NCBI GenBank assembly: GCA_950106755.1
Contig: OX467090.1
Coordinates: 1,116,001-1,180,000 of the forward strand
Reading direction: 5' to 3'
DNA: 64,000 nucleotides
From: Climacium dendroides
Lineage: Eukaryota > Streptophyta > Bryopsida > Hypnales > Climaciaceae
Shown here piece after piece: positions 4,139 through 61,750 of this stretch. The notes beneath the pieces were generated by a model that saw nothing but the letters and a program-made list of their open reading frames with translations, ran no database searches and was not told the origin of the DNA. A program made the translations under genes and the position numbers. Position 1 is the stretch's first letter. Each line of letters begins with the position of its first letter.

Positions 4139-7100
4139 TGTCGTACGCGCAGTTAGCCGTAAGTATCCTTACAACGACAAATGGTTGCAAGATGACACGA
4201 ATTATCGTTCCAGGGAACTTCTAGTAAGATATCGATTAAGTTAGAAGTATCCGGATCGTGACTACTCACTTAATCCTCGTTCTTCACTCACCCTATCTCG
4301 TTCCGAAAAACTCAGTACATTTCGGATTCCGTTCCGGATCCGGACATCTCCGGATCTGAGTTCCGTCTCTCTTCCGTCACTGGTTTTTATTGCCTTTGTT
4401 TTACCCTCAGAGGGTCCGCCCTTGATCTAGAAAGGGGTGGGGACTCACCACTTGTGCAAAATCCTCTCTGTACTCTAAATCCACTAAACAACACACCCAA
4501 GACAACACAGTTGTAGGAGGAGGGAGGAGTATTCTCTCACAGTTTCCGGATTGGCCGTTCCGGAATCAGGTCACACAGAGCAATTTTCACACCTCTCTTA
4601 TTACAACGACGGATCAGAACTTATAGACCCAAAAGAATAGAACCTCCAAGAGAAGACAATTTACCAAGAGGAGGTTGGCAGACTTTCCGAAGTAGCAGGA
4701 GATCCTTTCCTTTGGCGGGTGCTTAACTCCGCTCAGAACCCTCCTGGTTCCGGACTCGCACGGACCTCTACCGTCTATTCTGGATTGCCGTTCCGGCAGT
4801 TTAAAAGCACGTTGCACTTACACTCCCTTACTCAGCTTTGCATTCCTTCTCACTAGCTCCACCCCCAGATAATCCGTAGCGCAAGATCTAGATTCCTTCT
4901 CTCCCTCCCTTCTCTTTCTCCAGTACCAGATCATACACCCATGCATACACTCAGCCCAAAAGACCCTGTCTAAGCAAAAGTGCAGCTAAAGGTATCCTGG
5001 CTGACTTAAATTAAGAAAAGAAAATTGTAATACATACGTGAAAGCACGAAAATCCAGTGGAGTAGGATGGAATGGAATGGCAGACACTAACTTGCTTGCC
5101 CTTGAAATACTAACACAAAAACCCAAAGTCAACTCCTAAAAGCCTGAAAAGGAAACCCGGAAATCCAAGCCACCAATCCCTGAATCTCCCGAAATATCCG
5201 GAAAGATTGCTAACTGCCGTCCGAGATAACCGGATTTCCTTACTATCCGCCTAAAATTCCGGAAACCGGGTTCATGCTCGGAACTCCATTCCGGATCCTA
5301 TACTTCTTCTCCTACCAACCCTAATGTCTTGGCTTTCGTCCTTTCTTTGAACGGCTCCCCGCTTGGCTGGTAGGCGTCCCCTTCGTATTCTTTGTTGGCG
5401 TAGTTTTTGCTGTGGCCCGAGTCTAGATATGGTGCGTTGCTGGAGACGGATCGTTGTCGCCTTTGGTTCCGGAAGTGGAGTGGGCACTCTCCTCGTCAGA
5501 ATCTTCAATGACTTGAACTTCCTTCTCCTTCTCTGGTGTTGTATCCTCCAATGTTGCGGGTTCGCTTCCTTTCTCCGGCGTGGTCTCTTGCATGTGCACA
5601 AATCCTTTCGGATTAGTCCGAGCCGGATTGGTCATCCCACCAATCCGGTTGATGAGATCTCCCCTAACCTGCTGTCCCGGAACCTTGAATGATCCGGTCA
5701 TCAAATTCGGCATTGTTTGTGCCTTGGGAACTTCCGGAGTTGAGAACTTAGATGGTACCAGAACTGTTTTCGTGCTAGACTCCGGTTCTGGTTCCGAGGC
5801 TGGCCTCAAATTCAACTCCATCATCCGTATCTTACTAGCGGAAGGCTCGGCTGGTGTGAGTATCCCCCTCAGACCCTCCATCCGGGTTGCCTGATCCGCC
5901 ACTGGCTTCCCTGGGGTACCTGCGACAAAAGGAAGTTCCGGAAAGGTGGAGAAATCCATCGCATGGTTTGGGTCGATGGCCGCCAGCAACTTCTGGATCT
6001 CCTTGAAAACTCGCTCTATCCTCGCGGTGAAGTCTACGAGGATGGTAACTACCTTGGTTCCGGTAATGTAGCCTTCTGATATCATCTTCGAGTCAAACAA
6101 GGCAGCTTTCGTGATGATGTCGGCTTTGATGTTGACTGCCCCGGTTAGATTCTTGACCAGCGCGAGAGCCTCCTTCTCTTTCTCCTTCACAGCTACCATT
6201 TCTCCTTCCGCCCAATTCACCCGGGTCTGGAGTAGATTCCGTTCCGCCTCCAACTCCTGGATCCGCTCCTCCCTCTTCTTCAGATCTTCCGGCTTAGGCA
6301 GTCGCTTGACAGCTTCCACGATCTGATCCGGATCCACCTTCAACACTTCCGCGGTATCTATCACCAAATCTGACAACCCGTCGTGAAGTACCTTGGCTTC
6401 ACGTATCCACTCGAGCCCCGCATTGAAAAATGCGGATTCTGTTTCCATCTCAGGTCCTTTGTTGGACTCCCCCCTCTCCATTGTCGGTGGCTTGATTCTC
6501 GACCCCGGATCGGTTGACTTCCTCTTCTTGGTCCTCGGATCGGTAAGATGTTCCTCGGGAAGTTCCTCCGGTTCAGACTCGACCGGATCTTCCGCTTCCT
6601 CCCCGGAAAGTCCGTATGACAGGAGCGTCTTTCCGGTGTCATACTGAATTATTTCCGCCGCACTCAAAAGTTCCTGTTGATGGTACAGATGAAACAAATA
6701 CGTGCTAACTGGACTCGCCTTAGCTCGAGTCACGTGATCCGCTAATTTAGCCACTATCCCGGCTATGACTCTACCCCAGTGCACTACCCGGTTTTCCATA
6801 GCCCCAAAGATAGTATTGGCCACCGTAATGGTAACCCGCGTTGGCTTTTCCGGATATAAGATCAGAATCAGAAATTCTAGGATCCGCCTATGTCTCTCGT
6901 CCTTGCACTCGTTGATAGCAAATCCGTCCTTAGGGTTTGCAGACCCGGTGAACTTCCCAGCTACAAAGTGGTCCGTCCTTGATGCTAAACCGTTCCCACT
7001 CTTCCGGAACTGATAGACGTCCGCCCAGATGTCCTCGGTCCACGCGACTGGCCGCCCTCTCAAAGTGAGCTCATATTGATTCGGAACACCGTGAAGTAGC

Positions 7101-7699
7101 TCTTGAATCATCTCCTCACTCTTGAGGTTCCATGGTTGGTGTAGTAAACCGACACATCCTAACCTAGTCAAATCCTCCTCTAACTGCTTGTGTAGTTCCG
7201 GGCTATCCGGAATGGCCGGAGAGATAACCCGGGCAGATACCACTATCTTCCGTACTGGTCCAGATGCCATAAGATCTAAGTGAGAACGAAGGGAAAGTAG
7301 TTTTACCTTAGTCGCTAACTCACCACTCTTTCTCTCAACTACTCACACAGACAGTCTCAGGAACACCGAACAGAAAAGTGAAGAGGAAACCCTAGGAAGA
7401 CAGCTTAAGTACTAAACCGCCTTTTTATGGTCTTAAGGACAACGGCTACAGGTCCATTGTATCAACGGTATCCTACTTCCGTAGCTACGAGACCTATACG
7501 GTAGGTTCCTGTATTTCGGATGAGTCCGGATTCTGGATCCAGATAAGTTCTGGTTACGGGTGGTGTCGGAACGCTTATTTCCTAATTCAAGTTATCTGGT
7601 CCAAAAATCACACTCTAACTATTTTTTTTTTAATTTTTTTTTATTTTTCGCAGCTACTTCTTGCATTATTGATCTGTTTCCGGATTCCGGATTCCCACA
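4139..7699 (-). mobile_element. ORF-bearing solo-LTR-like element, copy 1 (subfamily A)
   Basis: This 3561-bp insertion begins TGTCGTACG and ends TTCCCACA on the plus strand, so it has TG...CA ends. It is flanked by a perfect 5-bp duplication TTTTG (4134-4138 and 7700-7704). The borders were fixed by comparison with copy 4, where homology stops at the same bases. No direct repeat joins its two ends, so it is not a short full-length element with two LTRs. TG...CA ends plus a 5-bp duplication are what a retroviral-type integrase leaves, so the simplest reading is one complete LTR left after LTR-LTR recombination. The single ORF is on the minus strand, taken as the element's orientation. The element is dense in TCCGGA/ACCGGA motifs. 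Confidence 0.85.
5423..7270 (-). CDS. LTR-encoded coiled-coil protein, copy 1 (615 aa, slightly truncated)
   Basis: This ORF lies inside LTR copy 1. Residues about 25-205 form a conserved, probably helical domain shared by all four copies, with NPKDGFA near 112-118, EKPTRVTITVANTIFGA at 141-157 and FHLYHQQELL at 193-202. Then come an acidic linker (about 223-245), a basic patch TKKRKS (247-252) that could be a nuclear localisation signal, a charged coiled coil (about 325-372), a second helical segment (about 400-432) and a disordered Pro/Ser/Thr-rich tail. Against copy 4, a Gln codon has become TAG at 5423-5425; the frame then runs 34 more codons to 5321, so the ancestral protein was about 649 aa. 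There are no protease, reverse transcriptase, RNase H, integrase or CCHC motifs. The N-domain recalls the putative plant transposon protein domain annotated in plant retroelement ORFs, from memory only. Function unknown. Confidence 0.7.
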   Translation of the reverse strand: MASGPVRKIVVSARVISPAIPDSPELHKQLEEDLTRLGCVGLLHQPWNLKSEEMIQELLHGVPNQYELTLRGRPVAWTEDIWADVYQFRKSGNGLASRTDHFVAGKFTGSANPKDGFAINECKDERHRRILEFLILILYPEKPTRVTITVANTIFGAMENRVVHWGRVIAGIVAKLADHVTRAKASPVSTYLFHLYHQQELLSAAEIIQYDTGKTLLSYGLSGEEAEDPVESEPEELPEEHLTDPRTKKRKSTDPGSRIKPPTMERGESNKGPEMETESAFFNAGLEWIREAKVLHDGLSDLVIDTAEVLKVDPDQIVEAVKRLPKPEDLKKREERIQELEAERNLLQTRVNWAEGEMVAVKEKEKEALALVKNLTGAVNIKADIITKAALFDSKMISEGYITGTKVVTILVDFTARIERVFKEIQKLLAAIDPNHAMDFSTFPELPFVAGTPGKPVADQATRMEGLRGILTPAEPSASKIRMMELNLRPASEPEPESSTKTVLVPSKFSTPEVPKAQTMPNLMTGSFKVPGQQVRGDLINRIGGMTNPARTNPKGFVHMQETTPEKGSEPATLEDTTPEKEKEVQVIEDSDEESAHSTSGTKGDNDPSPATHHI

Positions 7700-11921: not shown

Positions 11922-12282
11922 TGTCGCAGCACAGAGTAAGCAATTTCCCTATTATACTCACAAAAATCACTCTAGAGCATAACAAAATGACCCTAAAGAT
12001 CGAACCCACGAGATCTTGTGAAGTAGCTAACTCTAACAAGGAGATAAACTCAATTAAACCCCTTAATTCTACTTTTCCGGTTCTACCTCTAACGACCGGA
12101 ACATCCAAAACCAACCGGAAAGCTTCGACCGGACTGTTTTCCTACTTCTGGTTTTACTAGTTCCCCGATTTCTGGACTGACTTCTCGATTCTAGACCCTG
12201 CAACTTCTGGTCCTATGTACCCTCCTGGGCGGATCCGGTCCGGTCCCTACTTCCGTACCCGGTTTAGTTTTACCTCTGTTTT

Positions 12283-12300
12283 ACCATCAGAGGGTTCGCC
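12283..12300 (-). other. Conserved non-coding block in the LTR
   Basis: ACCATCAGAGGGT followed by a CGCC-containing stretch is present at the matching place in all four elements: copy 1 at 4403-4415, copy 3 at 52376-52388 and copy 4 at 58440-58452. In copies 1 and 4 the core is the near-palindrome ACCCTCAGAGGGT; in copies 2 and 3 one arm is changed, so the sequence rather than a hairpin is conserved. Its place between the inner TATA box and the CA end suggests R/U5 RNA. Function unknown. Confidence 0.5.
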
Positions 12301-12946
12301 GCTTGCTTTTGAAAGTGGTAGGCCCACCACTCCTTCCGTGACTTATAGTGGCTGAAGACCCACTTTCATATCTACAGATCCCCTAACTAACATGGATCCG
12401 GTTTGATCCTTCACAGTAATCCGGATAGCAATCCGAATCACAGGTCACACAAAGACCCCCCGTACGATCCTCGCATACTACAACGACCTTGACACTGATC
12501 CGTTCCGTACGAAGTTCGGTGGCTACAAGTGAATCTGTCCGTTCCAACACCCACGAAAGTTCTTCCGTTCACCCACAACGGTGGCAAGACCTCACAGGAG
12601 TCAGGATACTCGACCGGATTTCCCACCCAGGAGTTCTAGCGCAGCTAAGGAATCCCTCCCTATCCGCCTAGCCTGATCAACGGATCTCTCACCCGGAATG
12701 CTAAACTTTTGTAGCTGCTGAGGCACTGGAATCCACTCCTAACTCTTCATAACCTACTCACATGTACCTAGAACCGGAAACATACATCAAGGGGAGAAAC
12801 TCTACCAACACCTCCGTACTCACCTTCCTATTCTGACTCCGTGCACTCTTGCCAATACTCGGAAAAAATACATAAAAGTTAGTTTAAAGGAAAGTACACA
12901 AGGAAATGCCAAAAGAACTCTCTCCCTCGTCTCCAGCTCAGAGACT

Positions 12947-12956
12947 GTTTTATATA
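12947..12956 (-). promoter_or_regulatory. TATA-like box downstream of the LTR ORF, copy 2
   Basis: The minus strand reads TATATAAAAC, a near-perfect TATA box, and a CTGAG motif lies about 15 bases further on. Copy 3 has the same arrangement at 53057-53065. It lies after the ORF and about 1 kb before the CA end, where the genomic promoter of an LTR would be expected. The assignment is inferred. Confidence 0.45.
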
Positions 12957-13102
12957 CAAAAAGTAAAAAACAAAAAGTGAATACATGATTTCCGCCTCTA
13001 AAGGCGCTGACAATCCGGTCCTACCTTATCTTAATCGGATTCTATTCCGGTTCCTATCTATAAGTCCTATTTTTACAATCCTTCCTGTTCCGTCTCATAC
13101 AC

Positions 13103-14752
13103 TCAGGATCCAATGGTAGGGCTCTCATCAGGTCTCTCCAACTGCTCGAAGACCTCATTTAGATTCCGATTCCGTTCCCCATCCGTAGGTAGAACCGGAT
13201 GTTCTTCTTCAGCTTCCGGGGAGTCCAAATCTATCGGCTGATGTCCGGTCGAGGGCGTCTCCTTCTTTGCCCTGCTTGACTGGGGCATCTTGTCCTTTCC
13301 CGGTTCCTGAGCTACATCTTCCGGAAACAAGTCCGGAAGAGAAATTTCTGAGAGCCGGACCGGAACTTCTGTCAACTTCTGGCTACTCTCCACGATCCGG
13401 TCCGCTGACTCCCGTGCCTTGGATAGGAGCTTCTCCATCTGCTCCTCAAAATCGGTGAGGATGTGCACCACCTTGGTTCCGGATATCTTCTTGTCCTTGT
13501 GCACCTCCTCTTCGAACAGGCGCGCCTTGGTGACTGCGGCTCCGGGTCCTCCAAGCACGTCCTTCACTTCCGCGGCCAACTTCTTCATTTCCTCCGCCAT
13601 CTCCCTCGTCGCGGTGGCGTTCTCAAGCAGCGCGAATAGTTCGGCCTTGAGGGTGTCCACCTCATCGTGCTGCCGCTTGCTGTCCTCCTTCATCTTCCGG
13701 AGCTCTTCCAGATTGATAACACTCTCAGCCACCTTCCGTGGCAACTGACTGTCCGGTTCCGCTCCGATTAATTCCGCGATCTCCCCGAGCGTCCGCTTCT
13801 TAACTTTCCAATCCGCCCGGATTTCACAGAGGATCCCAACCAACTCATCGAACGGATCTACGGTCCCGGATCCGGATGCCACATCCGGTCCGGTTGGAGT
13901 CTCACCTCTACGCGGCCGCGGATGTCCCGGGGGCGTTCCTCGATTCCGAGTCGACGTGGTCTTCTGCCTCTTGGCGGGGACATACGGTTCCTCCTCTTCC
14001 TCTTCTTCTTCTTCTTCCTCCTCCTCGGTTTCATTTCCGGAATCCGCCTCTTGGTCGGACTCGGATTCTCCGTACTTCATGGTCCGCTCCTGGGCCTTCC
14101 ACACCTTCAGCTCCACCTCCGTCAGCAGTTCCTGTTGCTGGTAGAGGTGGTACACATAAGGGCACAATGGGGTAGCCCTACTTCTCCCCACTCTTGTAGT
14201 AAGCTGGGACACCAGATCAAAGAAGATCCGGCCCCAGTCTACTTTCCGGGTTCCGCTCAGCGCTCCGAAAATCGTGTTAGCCAAGGTGATAGTCACCCTG
14301 GTGGGCTTTTCCGAATGCAGAACCGGAACCAGGAACTGGAGCAGGCGTCGCTCCCGGTCATCGAGGCAGTCTTCGACCGCGTAGCCGTCCTTCGGGTTTA
14401 CTACGCTTTCGAACTTGCCCTGGACGAAATCATCCTTCCGGTGGGCAAGCCCGAGTCCTCCTGTCCGGAATCCGTATACGTCCCGCCACAAAGCCTCGGT
14501 CCATTGGACCGGATTCCCTCTCAGGGTGTTATCGAATTGATTCGATACGCCACTCAGGATTTCTCTAACCATCCTCTCATCTTTGAAACCCCAAGGTTTC
14601 AAAGCTAACCCCTGACAACCCATCAACGACAAATCTTCTCTGAGCTCTCCCTGTTCCGGTTCCTTGGTCGGCATGACCGGAACCACTTTTCTAAGCTTTA
14701 CTTCACTCGGGGGCGGGGTGTTAGATCCTCTCTTCCGGTTCAGCCGCGACAT
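13103..14752 (-). CDS. LTR-encoded coiled-coil protein, copy 2 (549 aa, intact)
   Basis: This uninterrupted ORF lies inside LTR copy 2. Residues about 35-215 match the N-domain of the other copies, with NPKDGYA near 119-125, EKPTRVTITLANTIFGA at 148-164 and YHLYQQQELL at 201-210. An acidic linker follows with a run of about 13 Glu (243-255, encoded by a TTC/TCC repeat on the plus strand), then a basic patch AKRQK (260-264), a coiled coil (about 345-400), a VVHILTDFEEQMEKLL helix and a Pro/Ser-rich tail. It is clearly homologous to the copy 3 protein (53212-54885) and more distantly to copies 1 and 4. No enzymatic motif is visible, so it is not a pol fragment. A Gag-like structural role, a DNA-binding role or a silencing antagonist are all guesses. 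Confidence 0.75.
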   Translation of the reverse strand: MSRLNRKRGSNTPPPSEVKLRKVVPVMPTKEPEQGELREDLSLMGCQGLALKPWGFKDERMVREILSGVSNQFDNTLRGNPVQWTEALWRDVYGFRTGGLGLAHRKDDFVQGKFESVVNPKDGYAVEDCLDDRERRLLQFLVPVLHSEKPTRVTITLANTIFGALSGTRKVDWGRIFFDLVSQLTTRVGRSRATPLCPYVYHLYQQQELLTEVELKVWKAQERTMKYGESESDQEADSGNETEEEEEEEEEEEEEPYVPAKRQKTTSTRNRGTPPGHPRPRRGETPTGPDVASGSGTVDPFDELVGILCEIRADWKVKKRTLGEIAELIGAEPDSQLPRKVAESVINLEELRKMKEDSKRQHDEVDTLKAELFALLENATATREMAEEMKKLAAEVKDVLGGPGAAVTKARLFEEEVHKDKKISGTKVVHILTDFEEQMEKLLSKARESADRIVESSQKLTEVPVRLSEISLPDLFPEDVAQEPGKDKMPQSSRAKKETPSTGHQPIDLDSPEAEEEHPVLPTDGERNRNLNEVFEQLERPDESPTIGS

Positions 14753-15061
14753 GAAGGTAGCTCTACCCGGTTTTCACTTTCTACAGTCCTAAAAAGGGAG
14801 CGCGCGACACTCAGATGTTCCGCTCCGCCTGTAAACTAACCTATTGGCGTGCTCACACTCTTAGTTTCTCACGTATCCGCTCGCACTCAAGGTCTCACCC
14901 ACTCATGTCCGGAGGAGATCTCTCCGTCTCACACCCCTCACTCACTTCCGGACCCTCTTGTACTTCCTCTTCCTTGCCGTGGTCAACGATAGAAATGTCA
15001 GGCGCTAAATCAGGACACGACAACACGTGGAAATCCAGAGACCTGAAAATGGGCAGGGCCA

Positions 15062-15073
15062 GGCTTTATATAG
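15062..15073 (-). promoter_or_regulatory. TATA-like box upstream of the copy 2 ORF
   Basis: The minus strand reads CTATATAAAGCC about 310 bases before the ORF start. Copy 3 has CTATTTAAAGA at the matching place. The dense ACCGG motifs just upstream (15090-15300) could be activator sites. This suggests that the ORF has its own promoter near the left edge of the LTR (minus orientation). Confidence 0.5.
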
Positions 15074-15356
15074 TCCTGACGCCCTGGACTGTCTTTATGA
15101 CCGGTCGGATATCCGGTCCGGTTCTTGACATCCGGTTATCTCCAATCCGGTCAACAAGATTCCGGTCGGAAATACTTATCCGGTTGTACATCTAATCCGT
15201 TCCGCTTCTACCTAAAACCGGATTAGTTCCGTAAGGTCCTTTTGTGACTATTTTTGGATTTTATTTTTCTCTCTAGATGAATCCGGATACCTATTTCTAA
15301 TTTCCGGTTCGCTCAAAAAGGTAAACAAATAAAAATCAAAAATATGAGTTGTCACA

Positions 15357-17400: not shown

Positions 17401-17597
17401 TTGTTTCCTTCATCATCAATCTTATTCTTCCTATCCTAAACTTGAGCTACATATTTTGTATTGATTGTAAATCTTTGAAGGTTAGGCTTTGTTGTTCAAT
17501 CACTAAAAATTAACCTCTCATTTCTTTGATTGTATATGCAGGCATTAAAAGTTGAAACAAAGACATTGGAAGCTACTTGCAACTTCATGAAGCCAAA

Positions 17598-18070
17598 AAT
17601 ATGACTTACAAAAGTCATATTCCATAAAATATGACTGACGAGAGTCGTATTCTACATTACTGCAAAATATGACTCACCTCAGTCATATTCCATGCCATCA
17701 AAAAATATGACTCACCTCAGTCATATTCCACGTCATCCAAAAATATGACTGACTGCAATCATATTCCACGTCATCCAAAAATATGACTGACTGCAGTCAT
17801 ATTCCACGTCATCCAAAAATATGACTGACTGCAGTCATATTCCACATCATCCAAAAGTATGACTGACTGCAGTCATATTCCATGTCATCAAAAAATATGA
17901 CTCACTACAATCATATTCCACATCATTAAAAAATATGACTCACTACAGTCATATTCCACGTCATCAAAAAATATGACTGACTGCAGTCATATTCCACGTC
18001 ATCCAAAAATATGACTGACCGCAGTCATATTCCACGTCATCCAAAAATATAACTGACCATAGTCATATTC
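17598..18070. repeat. Array of about 13 palindromic 37-38 bp units
   Basis: Each unit contains a dyad built from AATATGACTG and CAGTCATATT, separated by CCACGTCATCC-type spacers. Early units (17598-17700) are diverged; those from about 17740 to 18060 are near-identical. The array lies subterminally in the CACTA element and shares its ATATGACTG word with the terminal repeats, so it is probably an expanded block of transposase-binding sites. The RNA of either strand could fold into many short hairpins. Confidence 0.85.
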
Positions 18071-18618
18071 CACGTAGGATTTTTTTGTTTGCCCAAGCAA
18101 CTCAAGAAAAAGTCAAGACTCCCCTAAGAAAGTCAAAGTATACGCCATGTTGGCATATTATGGCTAAAAATGGGTATTTATACCCCTTGGAAAATATGAC
18201 TGCCAATATGACTGATGTCTGAAGCGACTGCTTCTAAACGACTGGAGTCAGTCATATTCCGAGTCATCTACAGTGATTTTTGCGTGAGTCGTATTTTTTG
18301 ATTTTACGACTCACTGCAGTCATATTTTGCAGTCATAAAACACTGCTTTTGTTGTAGTGCCATATTCTAGGGAGTGTGAAAGATAAACAAACATTCTTCA
18401 CTTTGTTCTTCTACAAAGACAAGTTGTAGAATAGGTTGGATTAGCACCTCGACATGGTTGTAGGCATGCACTGTCAGAACGTGTTCACATTGAAGAAATT
18501 TTGTATGATGATTGTTTCAAGCCACGGAGGTTATGCACTGACTGTATAACATCCATTGTAAGTGAAGGACATAGTTCAAGAGTGCAACACTACATTGTAC
18601 GGCTTCTACTTGTTAGTT

Positions 18619-19384
18619 AACCTCTAAATGCCCAAACTGTGTTTTTTGGCATTTTAGCAATTTTGGGTAGCTCATTACGAATGAAGTTTTCATTTTTTTT
18701 CTTTGAAATTTTCACACAACATTTTCCCGGAGAGTAGCTTTAAGGTCCAACAATTTTCATAACTTTTGATTGAATGGTTAAAAAGTCATTGCATGATATG
18801 TCATTTTCAACATTGTGGGCAACCTGGGTAGTCCAAAAACTTCTTTAAAAATCATTTTTTTCAAAAATTTCTTTTTGAAATTGGTTCTACATATTCATAT
18901 ACAAGTGGGAAGCTTTTAATCATTCCATTTTGATAGATGACAAGAAAGTTATGAAGATTTTTAGTTTGTAAATAAGTATGATTTTCAAAGACTCCAAATC
19001 TACTTGCAAACTAAAAACCTTCATAACTTTCATCTCACTTGTTGAAATGGAATGATTAAAAGCTTCCCACATGTACATAAATGTAAAGAACTAATTTCAA
19101 AAAGAAAATTTTGAAAAAAATGATTTTTAAAGAAGATTTTTGGGTTGCCCAAGCTGCCCACTAAGCAATGAAAATCATATATCATCAATAACTTTTTAAG
19201 CATGTAGTCAAAAATTACAAAAATTATTGGTCCTTAAAGCTACTTTGGAGGCACATGTTGCACAAAAATTTCAAACAAAAAAAATAAAAATTCCATTTGT
19301 AGTGAGCTGCCCAAAATCACTTGTTGAGATTGACTGATTTGGATGATGTTGCCAAAAAAACGCAGATTTTGCATTTAGGGGTTA
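18619..19384. mobile_element. Foldback-like element with long inverted arms, about 766 bp
   Basis: Left end TTAACCTCTAAATGCC pairs with right end GCATTTAGGGGTTAA, and homology continues inward over about 350 bases per arm. For example, GTGGGAAGCTTTTAATCATTCC on the left is matched in inverse by GGAATGATTAAAAGCTTCCCAC on the right. Only a short central region is unpaired. No ORF is present. A clear target duplication was not found, so the superfamily (Mutator-like foldback or other) is open. Confidence 0.65.
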
Positions 19385-26077: not shown

Positions 26078-26102
26078 AATCTCCTTTTGACTACCAACAA
26101 GT

Positions 26103-33530: not shown

Positions 33531-34275
33531 CAGCAAATTAAAGTTGATCCAGTTGATCCCTTGAGAAAGAATGCATTTTTGGAGGCGCGTGTATAATCAT
33601 ACAGCAACCCCAACAATCACAACTTCCTCCCGAAGTCAAAAAGCGAACCCCTCGGGTCCTCTCAAACTAAAAAAATCTCTTGTACCACAAGCGTTTCTGT
33701 ACGCTAGACGATATGATGTTGGATATTGTACGTTTGGACACCGGAACACACCGGAATCTGGCCTTGGCTTGTATCCAAAAGGAGCCTGTCCGGACCCAGA
33801 CCTCGGACATGGAATTGACAAGCCTTGACTTTGCAAATCGTCAAGGCATGAGGACGAACCTTTTCCCCCAAAAAAGCTTTCCTCGCCGTAAACTAATTCC
33901 ACTAGGATTGAAACCGGACGTCAGTTGTGCGGATGGCTTGCTTTTCATGATGCAGAAATCAGTAATGTAATGCAGGCACATTCGCGTCACTGCTTGTGAC
34001 GCCGTGAATCCTCGGAAGTCAAATTGGAAGCCTAACTTATTAACGAACGTGGGACGGGGACTCACGGCTCCTGAGCCGCAACAGGCAACGTACACGTACA
34101 TGGAGTAACCTAATAACCGACCTTCCCAGCTGCAATCAAACTGGCCACCCATTCTGCAACTCAAATCTGCTGCCGGTCAGGACTGAAAGCAAAGGGCTCT
34201 CATGCAAACTCTCCAAAGGAGGGTCCGGACACTCAACTCACTTACCGACATCTTCGTGAAATGTACATTTCAATG
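33531..34275. other. Moderately GC-rich non-repetitive stretch, possible gene debris
   Basis: Overlapping ORFs of 85-107 codons lie on both strands (33571-34164). None shows a recognisable domain, and they shadow one another. The base composition is clearly higher in GC than the flanks. It may be a decayed gene, a promoter or a retroelement fragment. Confidence 0.3.
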
Positions 34276-43506: not shown

Positions 43507-45861
43507 TTAGGAGTTACCAATTTCTCCTTCAAATGATTGTGCAGTTGTACTTGTAAGATATCGCTTTGGATTTGCATTCAAATGGCAAAACTTAGAGGAA
43601 TTCTTCCACAAGAGAATGACCTCTTCTATATTGTTGTCATAGTCATTGTCAAGTCCTTCCAAGGCTAATTGCATAGCACTATCCAAATTCAATGTTGTTA
43701 TACAATTTCAAAGCTTTTGCTTTATGTTATTTTGCACAGAGAATACCCTTTCACATGTAGTAGTGCTCACACATTGACATTTAGCAATTTCAACAAGAGT
43801 TAGGAGGTTAGGATATTTCAATTTCAACGATGGGCTTCAACTAATTGAAGCCCATATGTCTCCAAAAGATCTATCCATCCACTCTGTAATCCCTTGCAAC
43901 TTGAAAGCAAAGAATTCTTGCTTATAAGCTGCTACGTCTACCAAGGGAAAGAAAATCTTTCTTCCTTCGTTTTTCTGTTGTCCATATTGTTGCAAAAGCA
44001 AATCCAATTCCACAACTCCCCATGGTGCTAAACCAATTTGCATATGAGGCATGTGAACAGGGTTAAGAATTTTGAAAGCATCAATGACATCGTTATTTTC
44101 AAACCAAACCTCTAAAGCCAAACAAACTGCTTCTGTACAATATTTTTGAAATGTTAAAGAAAACTCCAAATCAGCACATGTAGGGTCCCTAGTCATTTGG
44201 ACACTATGGGAATTGGACCCTCTAATTTCGCTAGACAAACGATGAAAATACCTGCCTAAAGGGCCAAATTTTGGAAGAAAATGAAAATTTGTACTAGGAT
44301 TAAATGTACCTTGGTTCAAATCATAAGAATCAAGAAGAAAACACATCCTCACATTTACAATTTATGTTTTCACAATAGAGCCAATAATAGAAATGTTGAC
44401 AAGCTTAGATTGAAAAATCTTGGACAATTTCGATAGCATTTGTAGAATATCCGCCAAAAAATAGAGAATGTAAATAAACTTAAAATCCCACAACTTATCA
44501 AACAAAGTAGGAATGTTAGCATCATCATTAAAGGAATTATCACGCAAATAAATGAGGGCTGACTCCAAGGAATCACACAATGTGGTCACCGCTTGCTACC
44601 TGGACAACCAATAGACTTTATGATCCCTATCAAGCATTTTTTGAGCATCATTTAGTTCACTTTGAAGGCCTTGCAAAGCACATTTCCTTTTAGATGATTT
44701 TTTAAAGTGAGTAGCCAAAGCATTTAACATAGAATCCACTGCAGTGGACATTTCTTTGCAAGCTTCGTTCTTTGAGGCCTCTAGGGCTGCTAGATTGGTT
44801 CTATGAGCTACACAATGAGTAGATGTGAGGAACGGATTCACCTTTCTCAATCTTGCTGCCACACTCGTATTTTTTCCAACCATTGTGGAAGCTCCATCCG
44901 ATCCAAATCCAACACAACGGTTGAGATTTAGTCCCCAAGTCTTTGTGGTAGTATTGAATATCATTTTTGCATCCTTCTTTCCATCTTCAACCCACAACAA
45001 ATCCAAGAAAGTAGTGATAGGAAAACTACTTTCTAAAAAAGTAGCAAAACCCCCAAGATGTCCTCTTATAGAAATGTCAATAGATTCATCAATCATGAGG
45101 CCAAAGAATTTTGAATCTCTCACTATTTCTAGAACCTTCTTTTGAATAATAGAAGAAAATCCAGATACCATTTCATTGCAAGATTTTTCATTGTGGTAAA
45201 TCTTTTTAGTGATGGAAACATTACAAGAGAGAAGAAGATTGCATAAACTTGAAAATTTGTGGGAAGAGAGACTTTGCTTCCCTATCCAATATGTAGCCTT
45301 AAATAGGGATACCATTGCCTCATCAGAACTTTGATTTGCAGTTGCAATAGCTTTTTGCAAAGCCTTTTGCCCCCCATGTTTTGCCCAAGCCAATTTTCAG
45401 TGTTCCATACTTTTACCATGGTCTTGTAAAGCCAAAATTTTAATGTTCATTGACCCCTCTGTTGCATATGCATATTTTCCTCCACCCTCCTTACAAGTTT
45501 TACAAAAGACCCTTCCCAAATCACAATTGAACTCCACCCAATCATATAATTCATACCACGAGTCTTTCCACTCCAAATTAGCTTTTTCAATGTCATTAAG
45601 TTCTTTGCTAAGAGGTGTGATGGATGGTGAAGAATTAGATCCATGCGGATCGACTAAGTCCTTATTAGGTCTTGCTTTAGAAAACATATCTCTCATGGCA
45701 CTACTAGAAATTTCAGCAATTTCAGTCGATTCGGTCGACTTGATTTGGCCATTTTTTGACAGAAATTTACTGAAATCATCAAAAAATGGCCAAATCAAGT
45801 CGACCGAATCGACTGAAATTGCTGAAATTTCTAGTAGTGTGGTCTTCTGTCTCTTAGCCAT
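43507..45861 (-). pseudogene. hAT-superfamily transposase, full-length frame with five nonsense codons
   Basis: One frame runs from ATG (45861) to a terminal stop at 43507, about 784 codons, with no frameshift. Order: a zinc-finger-like start (DWVEFNCDLGRVFCKTCKEG); the RNase H-like core with MIDESIDIS (first Asp), FGSDGASTMVG (second Asp) and CVAHRTNLAALEA (the C-x-x-H signature); WLSR-QAVTTLCDSLESAL; and a C-terminal dimerisation region CERVFSVQNNIKQKL with the expected Glu. It resembles the hAT group with a TTF/DUF4371-type layout, from memory. In-frame stops are TGA 45397-45399, TAG 44596-44598, TAA 44362-44364, TGA 43837-43839 and TGA 43708-43710. Two of them sit where Trp (WLSRW) and Arg (KLRN) would be expected. 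A 141-bp MITE adds 48 codons near the N-terminus without shifting the frame. No active protein is expected. Confidence 0.85.
45699..45839. mobile_element. CACTA-type MITE, 141 bp, near-perfect hairpin
   Basis: It starts CACTACTAGAAATTTCAG and ends as the inverse, CTGAAATTTCTAGTAGTG, with almost full pairing of the arms and a short loop near 45760-45775. A 3-bp duplication TGG flanks it (45696-45698 and 45840-45842). Insertion plus duplication add 144 bases, a multiple of three, to the hAT transposase frame, and the MITE is open in that frame. Confidence 0.9.
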
Positions 45862-45909
45862 GAAGAACAACTTAAGAAAAAAAAGAAAAAAAGGTGAGAT
45901 ATTCTTCAC

Positions 45910-49278: not shown

Positions 49279-50035
49279 ACTCAAGGAAGAAAAGCACGGA
49301 ATTCATAGACTCAAGGAAGAAAAGCACGGAATTCATAGAACCAAACTCTGCTCCCTCTTTGGGATGAACTCTCATACATCACATTGTATGAAATGTAATC
49401 TATGAGAGTCCTTCCCAAAGAATAGAGTAGATTTTGGTTCTACAAACTTCATGCTATTTTCATTTGAATAGCTGCACAGAATTTATAAAACCAAACTTTG
49501 CTCCCTCTTTGGAATGAACTCTCACGCACTACATTGTGTGAAATGCAGTCTATGAGAGTCCTTCCCAAAGAATAGAGTAGATTTTGGTTCTACAAACTTC
49601 ATGCTATTTCCATTTGAATAGCTGCACAGAATTTATAAAACCAAACTTTGCTCCCTCTTTGGGATGAACTCTCACGCACTACATTGTGTGAAATGCAGTC
49701 TATGAGAGTCCTTCCCAAAGAATGGAGCAAAGTTTGGTTTTATGAATTTTGTATAGCTATTCTAATGGAAATCGCATAAATGTTGGGCATGGAGTTTGTA
49801 GAACCAAAATGTACTCCATTTTTTGAGGACTCTCACACACTACATTGTATGAAATGCAGTCTATGAAAGTCCTCAAAGAATAAAGCACATTTTGGTTCTA
49901 CAAACTTCATACTATTTTCATAGAACCAAACTCTTACATCTCCCTTGAGATGAATTCTCACACACCACATTGTGTGAAGTGCAATCAATGAGAGTCTTCT
50001 TCAAAAAATATGGAAAAGCTTCTTTTACAAACCTT
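49279..50035. repeat. Array of about 150-bp units, each an internal inverted repeat
   Basis: CTCCCTCTTTGG-ATGAAC recurs at 49351, 49501 and 49651, exactly 150 bases apart; two more diverged units follow to about 50035. Inside each unit CTTTGGGATGAACTCTCA is matched in inverse by TGAGAGTCCTTCCCAAAG, so a unit folds into a hairpin of about 100 bases. The array is preceded by a perfect 30-bp duplication at 49279-49338. It could be an amplified MITE or a foldback satellite. Confidence 0.85.
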
Positions 50036-50109
50036 GTGCCATTCTATCCTAGTATCCCTGAGTGTGTTTGCGTTGTATACTTTATGATTCTATCACCTAT
50101 GAATACTGT

Positions 50110-51990: not shown

Positions 51991-53056
51991 ATCGTGTAAG
52001 GAAAACTGTTGCAGTACAAGGTAAGTAAATTCCCTGTTATACTCCCGAAAACTCCTTTAAAGTATAACTAAGTGACTCTAAAGATTGAACCCACGAGATC
52101 CTGTGAAGTATTTGGCTTCATTACACGATTTAGGATGAGTTAGCTTATAAACCCAACTTCTGGTTTCAGGTCAATTACCGGAAAAAACTATAATATCCGA
52201 AAAACGGAGAATTATCTTCCCACCACTATTCCGGTTCTACCAACTATCCGGTCTGAACAACAATCACAACCCCATGAGGCTATAATCCCCGATCCTGGTT
52301 ATTCCTGTAGACCGATCTGTTCCAATCTAACGGTACTCTTCTTGATACTACTCGGTTTAATTTATCCTCTGTTATACCATTAGAGGGTTCGCCCCTTGGT
52401 TTTTAGAGTGGTAGGCCCACTACTCCTTCCGTAACTTATAGTGGCTGAAGACCCACTATCCTATCTTCTAATCTCCTACTTACTACAGATCCGGTTTGGT
52501 CTTTCACAACAATCTGGGTATTAATCTGGACTGTAGGTCACACAAAGGCCCCCCGTACGATCCTCTGATACTACAACGACCTTGGGCACCCTCTCCTATC
52601 CGTGCGAAGTTAGGTGGTTACAAGTAAACCCGTCCATTCCAACACTTACTAGAGCTATTCCGTTTACCAAATATGGCAGCAAGACCTCACAGGAGATCGA
52701 ACACTCAACCAGATTTCCCACCCAGGAGTTCTAGCGCAAGTAGGGAATCCCTCCCTATCCGCCTAGCCTAACAACGGTTTTCTCACCCGGAATCTCAAAC
52801 TCTAGACATGTTGAGGAACTGAAGCGCACTCCCAACTCTTTTACTACCTACTCTCATACACTGGAACTTGAAGACTAAAATAAACCAATAGGAGAAAATG
52901 TCAACTCTTAACTCCCTCTTTGCTCTCCTCACTTCCGGTCATACAACAGGCACACACACTCCCATGGCACACACATACAACAGCAAAGCAAAACAGAGGA
53001 CACAAAGGAATTTTGCAAAAGAAGATTTTTTTCTCCTCCTCCCCTTCTCAGGGCAG

Positions 53057-53065
53057 GTTTATATA
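53057..53065 (-). promoter_or_regulatory. TATA-like box downstream of the LTR ORF, copy 3
   Basis: The minus strand reads TATATAAAC, followed by CTGCCCTGAG. It matches the box at 12947-12956 in copy 2 in both sequence and place. Confidence 0.45.
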
Positions 53066-53211
53066 CAAAACCAAAAAAGTGCAAAAAGGCAAAAAGCGTT
53101 ACGGAATCTAGCCGCATTTCTCGGCTGAACTTCCAATCCTACCTACCTACCTACTACCGGATAGAATCCGGTTCCAATCTAACTCCTCTAGTATGTATAA
53201 ACTTTTACTAT

Positions 53212-54885
53212 CTACAATCCTAACCCTAAGGTAGGACTCTTCGGCTCGGCTTCCATCCCCTCGAAGATTTCAATCAGGTTCCGGTTCCGTTCCCCATCCA
53301 TAGGTTTTGGAACTGGATCGGCTTGACCGGAATCGGGTGTGGATTCCAAATCGATGGCGGATTCTGGGGTGTTTGCCGGTTTAGACGCCTCTGCAGTCAT
53401 CTTGGACCTGGGAGTCTTTTCCTTCCCCTCTTCAGAAGCTGTCACATCTGGAAACTCTTCTGGTAGGGAGAGCTCCGACAGAGGGACCTCCTTAGCTCCC
53501 ATCAGTTTCCGACTACTCTCTTCAATCCGGTCCACTGAAATCCGTGCCTCCTTCACCGTCGTCTCTACCCGCTCCGCATAGTCCGTGAAAATCCTTACTA
53601 TTCTAGCACCGGATAGTTTCTTCTCCTTATGGACTTCGTCGTCGAATAGCTTGGCCTTGGTGGCGGCCACCCTGGATACTCCAAGAATGTCCTTCATCTG
53701 GTCCGCTATCCGTCGTATTTCCTCTGCTATCTCCCTCGTGGCGGTTGCATCCTCCCTCAGGACAAGATTTTCCACCTTCAAGGTATCCGCCTCTGTCTGA
53801 AGTCGGATTACTTCTTCCTCCCACCTCCGGTACTCGATCGGATCGGTAATACAGTCGGCTACCTTCGTTGGTAATTGGTTGTCTGGCGGCGCATCCACCA
53901 GTCTTCTGATCGCCTGCAGGGTCAGATGCTTCACCTCCCAATCTGCCCGGACACTAGAAAGAATGCCAATCAAATTATTGAATGGATCCCATAGATCCAT
54001 TTCTTCCTCCATAACACCCTTCCGTTTCTCATCTAGAGTTGACGAGCCATGACTTCGAGGTGTTCCTTGCCCATGGGGAGGAGTTGTCTTTTGTCGCTTG
54101 ATTGGCAGCATCAACTCTTCTTCCTCTTCCTCCGTTTCCGGATCTGAATCTGGAACCGATTCCGCTTCATCGTCTTCTTCTGATTCCCCATATTTCAAGA
54201 GAGCTCCCTGAGCCTTCCACTCCTTCTCCTCATTATTTGTCAGGAGCTGATGGTTGTGGTAGAGGTGGTACAAGTACGGGCATATGGGTGTAGCCCTACT
54301 CTTTCCTACCCTCCCTATGAGTTGGGTTACCAGATCAAAAATGATCCGGGCCCAATCCACGTTCCGGGTTCCGCTCAGAGAACCGAAAATGGTATTCCCT
54401 AGGGTGATTTTCACCCTCGTCGGTTTCTGTGGATGGAGGATCGGAATCAGAAACCTCAAAAGACGACGGTGTCGGTCGTTTATGCAGTCGTCAATTGCAT
54501 ATCCGTCCTTAGGGTTGGGAACGCCATGGAACTTCCCCCGGATGAATTCATCCTTCCGTTCAGCCATCCCAAGACCTCCTACCCGAAAATCATACACTCC
54601 TCTCCAGACTTCCTCAGTCCAGAGGGACGGATTCCCTCTCAAGGTGTTATCGAACTCATTGGACAATTTGCCCAAGAATTCTTTCACCATTCTCTCCTCC
54701 CGGAATCCCCAAGGTCTCTCAATGAACCCCGGGCAACCCATAGAAGTTAAGTCTTCTATGAGTTGGTCCTTCTCTTGTTCGTCTGAGGGAATCACCGGAA
54801 ATATCTTCCGGAGTTTCACCTCGACTGGACCGGATCCTGACGACCCCGTTTTCTTTCGACGTAGCAGCGGTATGGGGTGGATCAC
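53212..54885 (-). CDS. LTR-encoded coiled-coil protein, copy 3 (557 aa, intact)
   Basis: An uninterrupted ORF with the same order of parts as copy 2: N-domain with NPKDGYA and QKPTRVKITLGNTIFG, YHLYHNHQLL, an acidic linker with Glu runs, the basic patch IKRQK, a coiled coil, the IVRIFTDYAERVE helix and a Ser/Thr/Pro-rich tail. The C-terminal phrase MDGERNRNL is shared with copy 2 (TDGERNRNL), which suggests constraint on the tail as well. The start is uncertain because the first 15 residues differ from copy 2. No enzymatic motif was seen. Two intact ORFs in diverged copies argue that the protein was under selection while the family spread. Confidence 0.75.
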   Translation of the reverse strand: MIHPIPLLRRKKTGSSGSGPVEVKLRKIFPVIPSDEQEKDQLIEDLTSMGCPGFIERPWGFREERMVKEFLGKLSNEFDNTLRGNPSLWTEEVWRGVYDFRVGGLGMAERKDEFIRGKFHGVPNPKDGYAIDDCINDRHRRLLRFLIPILHPQKPTRVKITLGNTIFGSLSGTRNVDWARIIFDLVTQLIGRVGKSRATPICPYLYHLYHNHQLLTNNEEKEWKAQGALLKYGESEEDDEAESVPDSDPETEEEEEELMLPIKRQKTTPPHGQGTPRSHGSSTLDEKRKGVMEEEMDLWDPFNNLIGILSSVRADWEVKHLTLQAIRRLVDAPPDNQLPTKVADCITDPIEYRRWEEEVIRLQTEADTLKVENLVLREDATATREIAEEIRRIADQMKDILGVSRVAATKAKLFDDEVHKEKKLSGARIVRIFTDYAERVETTVKEARISVDRIEESSRKLMGAKEVPLSELSLPEEFPDVTASEEGKEKTPRSKMTAEASKPANTPESAIDLESTPDSGQADPVPKPMDGERNRNLIEIFEGMEAEPKSPTLGLGL

Positions 54886-55090
54886 CTCTCACACGGATTT
54901 CCTCACCGATTCTACCTCACCCGCTCCTAGCTGCACGTCCCGTTCCTTTCTTCTTTCTCCGATCTCAACCGGAAGTACTAAAATTCTATTGAGGCACACT
55001 CTCCTGTCACGAGGGTACCAAATGTTGTAAACAACATGAGGAGCGCCCAATCTCGCGAGGAAATGAAAGAGGTAAGACTGGCAAGCTTGG

Positions 55091-55101
55091 TCTTTAAATA
55101 G
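55091..55101 (-). promoter_or_regulatory. TATA-like box upstream of the copy 3 ORF
   Basis: The minus strand reads CTATTTAAAGA about 205 bases before the ORF start, matching CTATATAAAGCC in copy 2. Confidence 0.45.
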
Positions 55102-55379
55102 CCCTAGAACTCCGCCGTGGTCATAATGGCTATTTCCGGTTTGGCGGCTTGACGTCCGGTCCAACCCTAATCCGATTTCTACCCTAATTTTGGATGGGTT
55201 TCCGTTCCCGATCAATTAGAAATTTCCAACTGAATTGAATCCGGTCTACTTGCTATTTCATTTTTCGCGTGTATATATCCGATTTTCCTACGACTGGCAT
55301 TCCAATCCGGTTCTTCCCAACTACTTTCCGCTCTAATTTCTAGATAAACTGAACGAAACAAAAATTCACGTTGCGACAA

Positions 55380-57600: not shown

Positions 57601-58177
57601 TAAGTTGCATTCATTCATTATTATAATCTAAAACCGCTACAAAGTAATTGCTTTAATTTTCAGGTAATAAATAGAAAAGGGTATTATGCCTCGGAAAGGA
57701 ATTCCCTTTCTTTCCAGTTCTTCAAAAAAAAAGTACGAAGGGGAAACCACAAGAGTTGGATTGGGAAGTTTACTTTGATGAATTCAATGTAGCAAAAAAG
57801 GGATGGGAGTACGAGTCCGAGAAAGTGTGGACTTGTACAATGTGCAAGAAATATGTGACCATGTCACACATAGCCAAACTCTGGCTAGCAAATGATAGTT
57901 TGGAGAAACAAGTGAGACGGTGGGAAGGCCCTATGAAGACGTGTACGAGTAGACACTTCGTAGAGAGATACAAAGAGATTTGGGCTGCTTCAAATCTAGG
58001 TCCTTCAAAGCCCATCATCATGAACTATTCTACCATGGCAATGATTTGGGCAAAGATTGTACTCCAGAAAGACGTTGACTGGCGTACAATTATAGGGATG
58101 AATAAAGCGACGAAAATGACTTGTCACTCAGCTGTGGTGTTTACCAACTGGCGTGGTGAAAGTGATTGCATGCCGGC

Positions 58178-61100
58178 TGTCGTACGCGTAGTTAGCCGTA
58201 AGTATCCTTACAATGCAAATGGTTGCAAGATGACACGAATTATCGTTCCAGGGAACTCTAGTATGATATCGATTGAATGAGAAGTATCCGGATTGTGACT
58301 ACTCACTTAATCTCCCTTATTTCACTTACCCTATCTCGTTCCGGAAACTTAGTACATTCCGGATTCCGTTCCGGATCCGGACACACCCGGATCCGAGTTC
58401 CGTCTTTCTTTCGTCATTGGTTTTTGTTGCTTCTGTTTTACCCTCAGAGGGTCTGCCCTTGATCTAGAAAGGGGTGGGGACTCACCACTTGTACAATTAT
58501 CCTCTCTGTACTCTAAATCTACTAAACAATACACCCAAGACAACACAGTTGTAGGAGGAGGGAGGAGTATTCTCTCACAGTTTCCGGATTGGCCGATCCG
58601 GAATCAGGTCACACAGAGCACTTTTCACACCTCTCTTACTACAACGACGGATTAGAACTTATAGACCCAAAAGAATAGAATCTCAAGGAAAAGACAATTT
58701 ACCAAGGGGGAGGTTGACAGACTTTCCGAAGTAGCGGGAGATCCTTTCCTTTGGCGGTTGCTTAACTCCGCACAGAACCCTCCTGGTTCCGGACTCGCAC
58801 GGACCTCTACCCTCTATTCCGGATTGCCGTTCCGGCAATTTAAAAGCATGTTGCACTTGCACTCCCTTACTCAGCTTTGCATTCCTTCTCACTAGCTCCA
58901 CCCCCAGACGATCTGTAGCTCAAGATCCGGATTCCTTCTCTCCCTCCCTTCTCTTTCTCCAGTCCCAGATCATACACCCGTGCATACACTCAGCCCAAAA
59001 GACCCTGTCTAAGCAAAAGTGCAGCTAAAGGTATCCTGGCTGACTTAGATTAAGAAAAAAAAATTGTAATACATACGTGAAAGCACTAAAATCCAATGGA
59101 GTAGGATGGAATGGAATGGCAGACAACTAACTTGCTTGCCCTTAAAATACTAATACAAAACCCAAAGTCAACTCCTAAAAGCCTGAAAAGGAAAACCCGG
59201 AAATCCAGGCCACCAATCCCTGAATCTCCCGAGATATCCGGAAAGATTGCTAACAACCGACCGAGATAACCGGATTTCCTTACTATCCGCCTAAAATTCC
59301 GGAAACCGGGTCCAAGCTCGGAACCCCACTCCGGATCCTCTACTTCTTCTCCTACCAATCCTAATGTCTTGGCTTCCGTCCTTTCTTTGAACGACTCCCC
59401 GCTTGGCTGGTAGGCGTCCCCTTCGTGTTCTTGGCTGGTGTAGTTTTTGCTGTGGCCCGAGTCTGGATATGGCGCGTTGCTGGAGACGGATCGCTGTCGC
59501 CTTCGGTTCCGGAAGTGGAGTGGGCACTCTCCTCGTCAGAATCTTCAATAACTTGGACTTCCTTCTCCTTCTCTGGTGTTGTATCCTCCAATGTCGCGGG
59601 TTCGCTTCCTTTCTCCGGCGTGGTCTCTTGCATGTGCACAAATCCTTTCGGATTAGTCCGAGCCGGATTGGTCATCCCACCGATCCGGTTGATGAGATCT
59701 CCCCTAACCTGCTGTCCCGGAACCTTGAATGATCCGGTCATCAAATTTGGCATTGTTTGTGCCTTGGGAACTTCCGGAGTTGAGAACTTAGATGGCACTG
59801 GAACCGTTTTCGCGCTAGACTCCGGTTCCGGTTTCGAGGCTGGCCTCAAATTCAACTCCGTCATCCGTATCTTACTAGCGGAAGGCTCGGCTGGTGTGAG
59901 TATCCCCCTCAGGCCCTCCATCCGGGTTGCCTGATCCGCCACTGGCTTTCCTGAGGTACTTGCGACAAAAGGAAGTTCCGGAAAGGTGGAGAAATCCATC
60001 GCATGGTTTGGGTCGATGGCCGCCAATAACTTCTGGATCTCCTTGAAAACTCGCTCTATTCTCGCGGTGAAGTCTACGAGGATGGTAACTACCTTGGTTC
60101 CGGTAATGTGGCCTTCTGATATCATCTTTGAGTCAAACAAGGCAGCTTTCGTGATGATGTTGGCTTTGATGTTGACTGCCCCGGTTAGATTCTTGACCAA
60201 CGTGAGAGCCTCCTTTTCTTTCTCCTTCGCAGCTACCATTTCTCCTTCCGCCTAATTCACCCGGGCATGGAGTAGATTCCGTTCCGCCTCCAACTTCTGA
60301 ATCCGCTCATCCCTCTTCTTCAGGTCCTCCGGCTTGGGCAGTCGCTTGACAGCTTCCACGATCTAATCCGGATCCACCTTCAATACTTCCGCGGTATCTA
60401 TCACCAAATCCGACAATCCGTCGTGAAGTACCTTGGCTTCACGTATCCACTCGAGCCCCGCATTGAAAAATGCGGATTCTGTTTCCATCTCAGGTCCCTT
60501 GCTGGACTCCCCCCTCTCCATTGTCGGTGGCTTGATTCTCGACCCCGGATCGGTTGACTTCCTCTTCTTGGTCCTTGGGTCGGTCAGACGTTCCTCGGGA
60601 AGCTCCTCCGGAAGTTCCTCTGGTTCAGACTCGACCGGATCCTCCGCTTCCTCCCCGGAAAGTCCGTATGATAAGAGCGTCTTTCCGGTGTCATACTGAA
60701 TTATTTCCGCCGCACTCAAAAGTTCCTGTTGATGGTACAGATGAAACAAATACGTGCTAACTGGACTCGCCTTAGCTCGTGTCACGTGATCCGCTAATTT
60801 AGCCACTATCCCGGCTATGACCCTACCCCAGTGCACTATCCGGTTCTCCATAGCCCCAAAGATAGTATTGGCCACCGTAATGGTAACCCGCGTTGGCTTT
60901 TCCAGATATAAGATCGGAATCAGAAACTCTAGGATCCGCCTATGTCTCTCGTCCTTACACTCGCTGATAGCAAATCCGTCCTTAGGGTTTGCAGTCCCGG
61001 TGAACTTCCCGGCTACAAAACGGTCCGTCCTCGATGCTAAACCGTTCCCACTCTTCCGGAACTGATAAACATCCGCCCAGATGTCCTCGGTCCACGCGAC

Positions 61101-61750
61101 TGGTCGTCCTCTCAAAGTAAGCTCATACTGATTCGGAACACCGTGAAGTAGCTCTTGAATCATCTCCTCACTCTTGAGATTCCACGGTCGGTGTAGTAAA
61201 CCGACACATCCTAACCTAGTCAAGTCCTCCTCTAACTGCTTGTGTAGTTCCGGGCTATCCGGAATGGCCGGAGAGATAACCCGGGCAGATACCGCTATCT
61301 TCTGTACTGGTCCGGATGCCATAAGATCTAAGTGAGAACGAAGGGAAAGTAGTTCTACCTCAATCGCTAACTCACCACTCTTTCTCTCAACTACTCACAC
61401 AAACAGTCTCGGGTACACAGAACAGAAAAGTAAAGAGGAAACCCTAGGAAGATGGCTTAAGTACTAAACTGTCTCTCTACGGTCTTAAGGACAACGGCTA
61501 CAGGTCCGTTGTCTCAACGGTATCCTACTTCCGTAGCTACGGGACCTATATGGTAGGTTCCTGTGTTCCGGATGAGTCCGGATTCCGGATCCGGATAAGT
61601 TCCGGTTATGGGTGGTGCTGGAACGCTTATTTCCTAATTCAAGTTACCTGGTCCAAAAATCACACTCTAACTATTATTTTTTTATTTTTTTTTATTTTTC
61701 GCACCTATTTCTTGCATTATTGATCCGTTTCCGGATTCCGGATTCCCACA
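58178..61750 (-). mobile_element. ORF-bearing solo-LTR-like element, copy 4 (subfamily A)
   Basis: This 3573-bp insertion begins TGTCGTACGCG and ends GGATTCCCACA, flanked by the perfect duplication CCGGC (58173-58177 and 61751-61755). It is near-identical to copy 1 along its whole length (a few percent difference by eye), so the two are young relatives inserted at unrelated sites. It cuts the coding frame of the gene at 57686-62254. No internal LTR pair was found. The CCGGC target happens to match the CCGG motif abundant inside the element. Confidence 0.9.
59361..61322 (-). pseudogene. LTR-encoded coiled-coil protein, copy 4 (653-codon frame, two nonsense codons)
   Basis: The frame is continuous from 61322 to a TAG at 59361 with no frameshift. 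It is broken at 60363-60365 (Gln in copy 1, TAG here) and 60252-60254 (Trp in copy 1, TAG here). It has four extra codons in the acidic linker (an added ELPE) relative to copy 1. Beyond the point where copy 1 is truncated, it shows the intact C-terminus ending in a basic stretch (GSRSKKGRKPRH). Domain order is as in copy 1. Copies 1 and 4 together give the ancestral state of every nonsense codon in subfamily A. Confidence 0.8.

Follow-up and report, generated by a model that had tools for sequence, protein, structure and literature searches.

The window analysed here, a stretch of 64,000 nucleotides from Climacium dendroides (Bryopsida; contig OX467090.1, positions 1,116,001 to 1,180,000), contains four insertions, units 1 to 4, each of which has the appearance of a solo long terminal repeat (LTR) and holds a protein-coding frame (Table 1). 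A preliminary description had read them as solo LTRs from their TG...CA ends, their perfect 5-bp target duplications and the lack of an internal repeat joining their ends. TG...CA ends are seen directly in all four units. Perfect duplications flank all four as well, with one adjustment: unit 3 ends at 55378, one base earlier than the 55379 first given. Neither the alignment of the units nor the self-comparison of the window revealed a direct repeat joining both ends of one unit. Short terminal repeats within a unit, which would make it a complete small element, were looked for by alignment and not found.

All four units hold homologous coding frames on the minus strand. The open reading frames (ORFs) had been put at 549-653 codons, which is right for unit 1 (615) and unit 2 (549); the frame of unit 3 has 509 codons from its ATG, and that of unit 4 is broken by stops. 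The units form two families. Units 1 and 4 (family A) are 94% identical in the self-comparison of the window, and unit 2 (family B) shares 72-82% identity with unit 3 in the alignable pieces only. Here, we show that the family A LTRs, which are about 3.5 kb long, belong to a Ty3/gypsy-type retrotransposon that carries the gene in each LTR, in the sense orientation relative to gag-pol.

Parent element of the family A LTRs

Units 1 and 2 were used as queries against the 412.6-Mb genome. The best 40 candidates were scored per query, so that all counts of copies are lower bounds, and the matches listed for unit 1 are incomplete, as unit 4 is absent from them. Searching with an LTR also favours uninterrupted copies similar to unit 1, and the counts are no gauge of the proportion of solo to complete elements. 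Unit 1 is found at 40 places at least, 38 of them near full length and 93-100% identical (unit 1 itself included). For unit 2, there are at least 41 near-full-length places with 91-100% identity (unit 2 itself included). Among 32 family A loci, the 5-bp duplication is perfect at 22, has one mismatch at seven and is missing at three. One of these three, L024, has an altered end; the other two, L011 and L025, are the 5' LTR and the 3' LTR of complete elements and have no duplication of their own. Moreover, three family A copies (L018, L027 and L031) lie inside family B-like copies. Because of these copies, their duplications and their nesting, the units are real and were inserted independently.

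Some neighbouring family A copies are inverted relative to each other (L006:1501-6564, and L009/L010 at C1:48068301 and 48079038; about 0.2 kb and 7 kb apart). In family B, a direct pair on C38 (28623172 and 28641879) was considered as a 22-kb complete element and rejected, as the duplications CCGAA/TCGAA and AAACC/AAACC identify two solo copies.

The abundance of stand-alone copies, with a full or one-mismatch duplication at 29 of the 32 family A loci, raises the question whether the units are LTRs at all. They could instead be complete small elements with a single gene, representing a new integrase-dependent or DNA-type transposon. A test for a primer binding site (PBS) seems at first to favour this. 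A motif of the TGGCGCC kind was sought at the LTR end downstream of the gene, a test that other motifs would escape. It adjoins only one of 74 LTR ends: one of 40 family A copies (L011) and none of the 34 family B copies tested out of 41 listed, where a differing motif could be missed.

The single copy with this motif is part of a complete element on C31 (Table 1). Beyond the CGACA end of L011 lie CTTT-TGGCGCCGCTGCCGGGGA and, next, a gag frame; TGGCGCCGCTGCCGGGGA resembles, with one mismatch, the complement of the 3' end of a transfer RNA that we take to be tRNA-Asp. The next 9.9 kb (L037) hold pol and a second family A copy, which is directly preceded by the polypurine tract GAAAAAGGGGTAA. 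Pfam matches in this element comprise Retrotrans_gag (5.8e-11), zf-CCHC (2.4e-5), RVT_1, RT_RNaseH_2, Integrase_H2C2 (4.5e-12) and rve (1.1e-12). They follow the gypsy order on the strand of the LTR gene, in frames that hold a few stops. For the protease, no Pfam match was obtained in the C31 frames, and a protease-like DGGSG motif upstream of the reverse transcriptase (RT) was recognised by eye only. The order of the element is LTR(gene) - PBS - gag - (protease-like motif) RT - RNase H - integrase - polypurine tract - LTR(gene). A unit pair in direct orientation around gag-pol, with a PBS just inside, was what the preliminary description had named as support for its reading, and it has now been found, together with further 3' junctions. 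The predicted doubling of the gene at both ends of the parent is borne out too, as both LTRs on C31 are ORF-bearing. Since the gene lies in the repeat, it is doubled with each integration and outlives recombination between the LTRs.

Both LTRs on C31 have been interrupted. Inserted in the 3' LTR is a solo LTR of family B, flanked by a CGGGC duplication of its own. The 5' LTR contains a 0.6-kb insert (L011:4907-5499) with the ends CAGGGTTGTC...GACAACCCTG and an 8-bp duplication, GTCCACGC, which is presumably a short non-autonomous DNA transposon of the hAT type. The whole element lies between near-matching copies of its target site, TCACA and TTACA. Aligned over 3575 columns, its two LTRs show 48 differences (1.34%). 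At the rate of 1.3e-8 substitutions per site per year used in PMC7251063, this divergence places the insertion at about 0.5 million years ago.

The C31 element is not an isolated case. Its internal region occurs at no fewer than 40 places in the genome, its own included, when the best 40 of 580 candidates are scored. At the best 20 of the 39 other places, the 3' junction was tested, and in all 20 the polypurine tract is followed by the start of a family A LTR (at one place, the one beside L025, read over 30 bases only). Next to the 3' LTR L025, 3,001 bp of internal sequence are 95.6% identical to the C31 internal region. In nine of the 20 copies, we looked in the 3' LTR where the ORF should lie, and seven have it, with 85-97% protein identity. 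PBS, gag-pol and polypurine tract thus lie between two unit copies on C31, and internal sequence joins the unit start at every place tested. For family A, the complete elements (L011, L025 and the internal-region matches) refute the small-element reading, which we now consider extremely improbable overall. The reading as solo LTRs stands, with paired LTRs, PBS, gag-pol and polypurine tract found for family A only. Homology and layout indicate that the family B units are LTRs as well.

The Pfam matches along the minus strand of L037 show the RT - RNase H - integrase order of Ty3/gypsy pol. In the stretch after the integrase (L037:6005-6409), no Pfam family, and hence no chromodomain, was matched at an expectation value (E) of 0.01, at which a weak domain could be missed. 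As a check for a Tat-type archaeal RNase H, we inspected the RNase H families in six pieces of gag-pol frame, where only RT_RNaseH and RT_RNaseH_2 matched. ATHILA ORF-1 (PF03078) matched neither these six pieces nor the four window frames. Of 306 integrase relatives, 120 were listed, and the entries among them that name a host are from Calypogeia fissa and Marchantia polymorpha, both liverworts.

Coding constraint and the LTR protein

Purifying selection acts on the LTR protein between copies. We compared 29 family A copies, namely 28 of the 32 loci plus unit 4; L006, L011, L018 and L021 were dropped by a length filter (3500-3650). The longest intact frame, of 649 codons, is kept in six of them. 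In the gene frame, the simple ratio of non-synonymous to synonymous differences (pN/pS) is 0.24. The remaining forward frames give 0.86 and 1.14, and flanking DNA gives 0.56-0.85 when read forward. Across the ORF, the three reverse-strand frames give 0.74, 1.32 and 0.34, the last being the frame that has the third position in common with the gene, and the flanks on that strand give 0.50-0.75. Differences at the first, second and third codon positions amount to 0.041, 0.030 and 0.082, so that the third position differs twice as often as the first and 2.7 times as often as the second. By region, pN/pS is 0.23 in the N-terminal domain, 0.21 in the linker, 0.18 in the coiled coil and 0.38 in the tail.

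When pairs of copies are sorted into fifths by synonymous distance, pN/pS falls from the closest to the most distant pairs (0.33, 0.28, 0.25, 0.22 and 0.21). Constraint is thus weaker between close copies, as it should be where selection operates on the mobile lineage while solo copies degenerate. The pattern fits a protein under purifying selection of this kind, with solo copies decaying after their formation.

Compared with the unit 1 protein, that of unit 2 is 34% identical overall and 50% in the N-terminal domain; for unit 3, the values are 32% and 47%. The N-terminal domain is predicted to be mostly helical and has a conserved stretch around PEKPTRVTIT..NTIFG. Residues 278-431 are predicted to form long helices; over much of the linker and tail, the model has low confidence. 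The full C-terminus, as seen in the database relative P0001 and in L037, is rich in lysine and arginine. Overall, the protein combines a helical domain with a coiled coil and an acidic linker, and complete versions also have a basic tail.

Searches of Pfam, of PDB sequences and of PDB folds gave no convincing match for the LTR protein. Transposase_28, Transposase_32 and PMD, the Pfam families proposed beforehand, did not match any of the four window frames at E up to 1, nor do they appear among the families listed (25 of 35) for 39 aligned LTR proteins. A protein database yielded 36 relatives (7,999 candidates scored), and a scan of viral contigs yielded none. Comparing 27 of these 36 relatives with 46 of the 120 listed integrase relatives, we found two pairs with the same reported contig size (281,427 and 757,283), which hints that gene and integrase are linked elsewhere too.

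The lack of a known domain would be in keeping with a captured host gene, or an open frame that arose by chance, that does nothing for the element. We regard this as unlikely, given the coding constraint between copies, the roughly 50% identity of the N-terminal domain between families A and B, and the existence of 36 database relatives.

Proposed expression layout and role

In the orientation set by the PBS, the LTR would begin with its 5' end, followed about 290 bp in by a TATA-like box, the gene, a possible polyadenylation block and the U5 end. The candidate box is clearest upstream of the unit 2 gene (Table 1); in an alignment judged by eye, units 1 and 3 have TATA-like candidates that are less distinct, at about the same position. 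A block near the U5 end is common to units 1, 2 and 3 and is possibly the polyadenylation region. Within it, AATAAA (4386-4391) is present in unit 1 only. A transcription start at the box at about 290 bp would place the gene in the R region, as first cistron of the genomic RNA. A start at a later TATA-like site (in unit 1, near 4632) would place it in U3, with its own promoter. With either start, each LTR, solo LTRs included, may be a self-contained expression cassette.

We propose an accessory function for the LTR protein, which would most likely be nuclear and act in trans on the DNA or RNA of the element itself, for example by relieving silencing or by boosting transcription from the LTR. 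We put this regulatory role forward tentatively. The main rival assigns the protein a structural or Gag-like accessory role, for example as a partner in assembly or in the packaging of nucleic acid. Assembly or nucleic-acid binding would be in line with a helical domain, a coiled coil and a basic tail. However, the element already encodes Retrotrans_gag and a zinc knuckle, and no capsid relative was found among PDB folds, which is weak evidence. We rate a structural role as possible, but less likely than not. A more far-reaching version of the regulatory proposal is that a trans-acting regulator has moved into the LTR. Each insertion would then carry two copies, solo LTRs would serve as dispersed helper genes that support complete elements or are exploited by them, and the protein would have a previously unseen fold. 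We consider this version doubtful.

Several observations weigh against our interpretation. Two of the nine probed internal-bearing copies lack an ORF match in the stretch examined, and of the seven matches in 3' LTRs, one is internally deleted and another is displaced. A complete family B element was not found when 34 of 41 places were tested with the family A-type motif only. The 649-codon frame is missing in 23 of 29 copies, so that solo LTRs as lasting sources of the gene stay a conjecture. The neutral level of the pN/pS measure is uneven, with 0.34 in one frame of the ORF and 0.50 in one frame of the 5' flank, both on the reverse strand. The promoter and polyadenylation assignments are predictions from motifs, and as no functional domain is recognised in the LTR protein, its role is a guess. 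With these points considered, we hold the anatomy of the element and the selection on its LTR gene with high confidence. The explanation as a whole, with the role of the protein held loosely, appears likely to us.

Table 1. Positions of the LTR units, their genes and related features. Positions refer to the window unless C31 is named; the strand of a unit is that of its gene and of the LTR.
Feature	Position	Strand	Description
Unit 1	4139..7699	-	Solo LTR, family A; TG..CA ends, TTTTG/TTTTG duplication
Unit 2	11922..15356	-	Solo LTR, family B; GTTAA/GTTAA duplication
Unit 3	52007..55378	-	Solo LTR related to family B; AAAAC/AAAAC duplication with end at 55378
Unit 4	58178..61750	-	Solo LTR, family A; CCGGC/CCGGC duplication
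Unit 1 LTR gene	5423..7270	-	615 codons open (649 in six other copies)
Unit 2 LTR gene	13103..14752	-	549 codons
Unit 3 LTR gene	53212..54888	-	558-codon open frame; first ATG at 54741 (509 codons)
Unit 4 LTR gene	59361..61322	-	Stops split the frame into 319 + 292 codons from ATG
N-terminal domain, residues 1-222 (unit 1)	6605..7270	-	AlphaFold2 (predicted alone), mean predicted local distance difference test score 92.1
TATA-like box CTATATAAAG	15064..15074	-	Upstream of unit 2 gene; predicted function
Block near U5 end (unit 1)	4380..4450	-	Common to units 1, 2 and 3 by alignment
Complete family A element	C31, ~74483-91547	-	Two family A LTRs around a 5.9-kb gag-pol region

The remainder of the window holds further repeats. 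A tandem repeat at 32884-33549 consists of three copies of a unit of about 221 bp with about 98% identity. Tandem arrays lie at 17593-18075 and 49324-50010, the latter also showing long inverted self-matches. Two stretches match their own reverse complement (18660-19317 at 80% and 45699-45839 at 92%) and are possibly hairpin-type elements. Two further ORFs were judged by eye only: one at 38705-39940 (+) is sugar transporter-like, and one at 44596-45315 (-) resembles a hAT-like transposase.

Comparison with known elements

The element belongs to a known class; what is new is the placement of its accessory gene inside the LTRs. It is customary to view LTRs as control regions without coding function and solo LTRs as dead relics. 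A conserved gene within the LTR survives the usual loss of internal sequence. It also makes it possible to ask, in a natural setting, if a trans-acting function of a retrotransposon can persist after gag-pol is lost. For genome annotation, it means that dispersed 'genes' of unassigned function may be solo LTRs.

Extra ORFs are known from plant Ty3/gypsy elements such as Grande, RIRE2 and Retand, where the reviewed cases mostly lie between pol and the 3' LTR, in sense or, often, antisense, and include Transposase_28 and PMD proteins; those of Retand are antisense and usually have Transposase_28 (PMC7264820, PMC11963269). Like these, the element described here combines gag-pol with a conserved extra ORF of unassigned, possibly nuclear function (PMC7264820, PMC11963269). 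In contrast, its ORF has no Pfam match and lies in both LTRs, in sense. Athila and other non-chromovirus gypsy elements have LTRs of up to ~5 kb, commonly extra ORFs, and a non-Met PBS (PMC6317226). Very long LTRs, a non-Met PBS and no chromodomain match are features shared with our element. Unlike in Athila and its relatives, the internal region here is only 5.9 kb long and no extra ORF was noticed in it.

Sequences derived from genes have been described within LTRs. In Cassandra, Helenus and Ajax, which are short non-autonomous elements, the LTRs contain sequences derived from small RNAs (PMC10886601). As in our case, a gene-derived sequence is located in the LTR and copied along with it (PMC10886601). 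Here, however, the sequence is a protein gene and the element has gag-pol. Neumann 2019 sorts extra ORFs only by their position relative to gag-pol, so that cases such as ours could hide there. Among open-licence papers, screened mostly by title and opening of the abstract in capped lists, we found no plant LTR element described with a protein gene in its LTR, which is no proof of absence.

A similar layout is known from animal retroviruses. The sag gene of mouse mammary tumour virus, and retroviral nef, which overlaps U3, are protein genes that lie in sense inside the LTR and are therefore present at both ends. We know of no relation between the LTR protein described here and the sag or nef proteins. 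In contrast to these animal viruses, the element from C. dendroides is a plant retrotransposon of the gypsy type and is accompanied by many solo LTRs.

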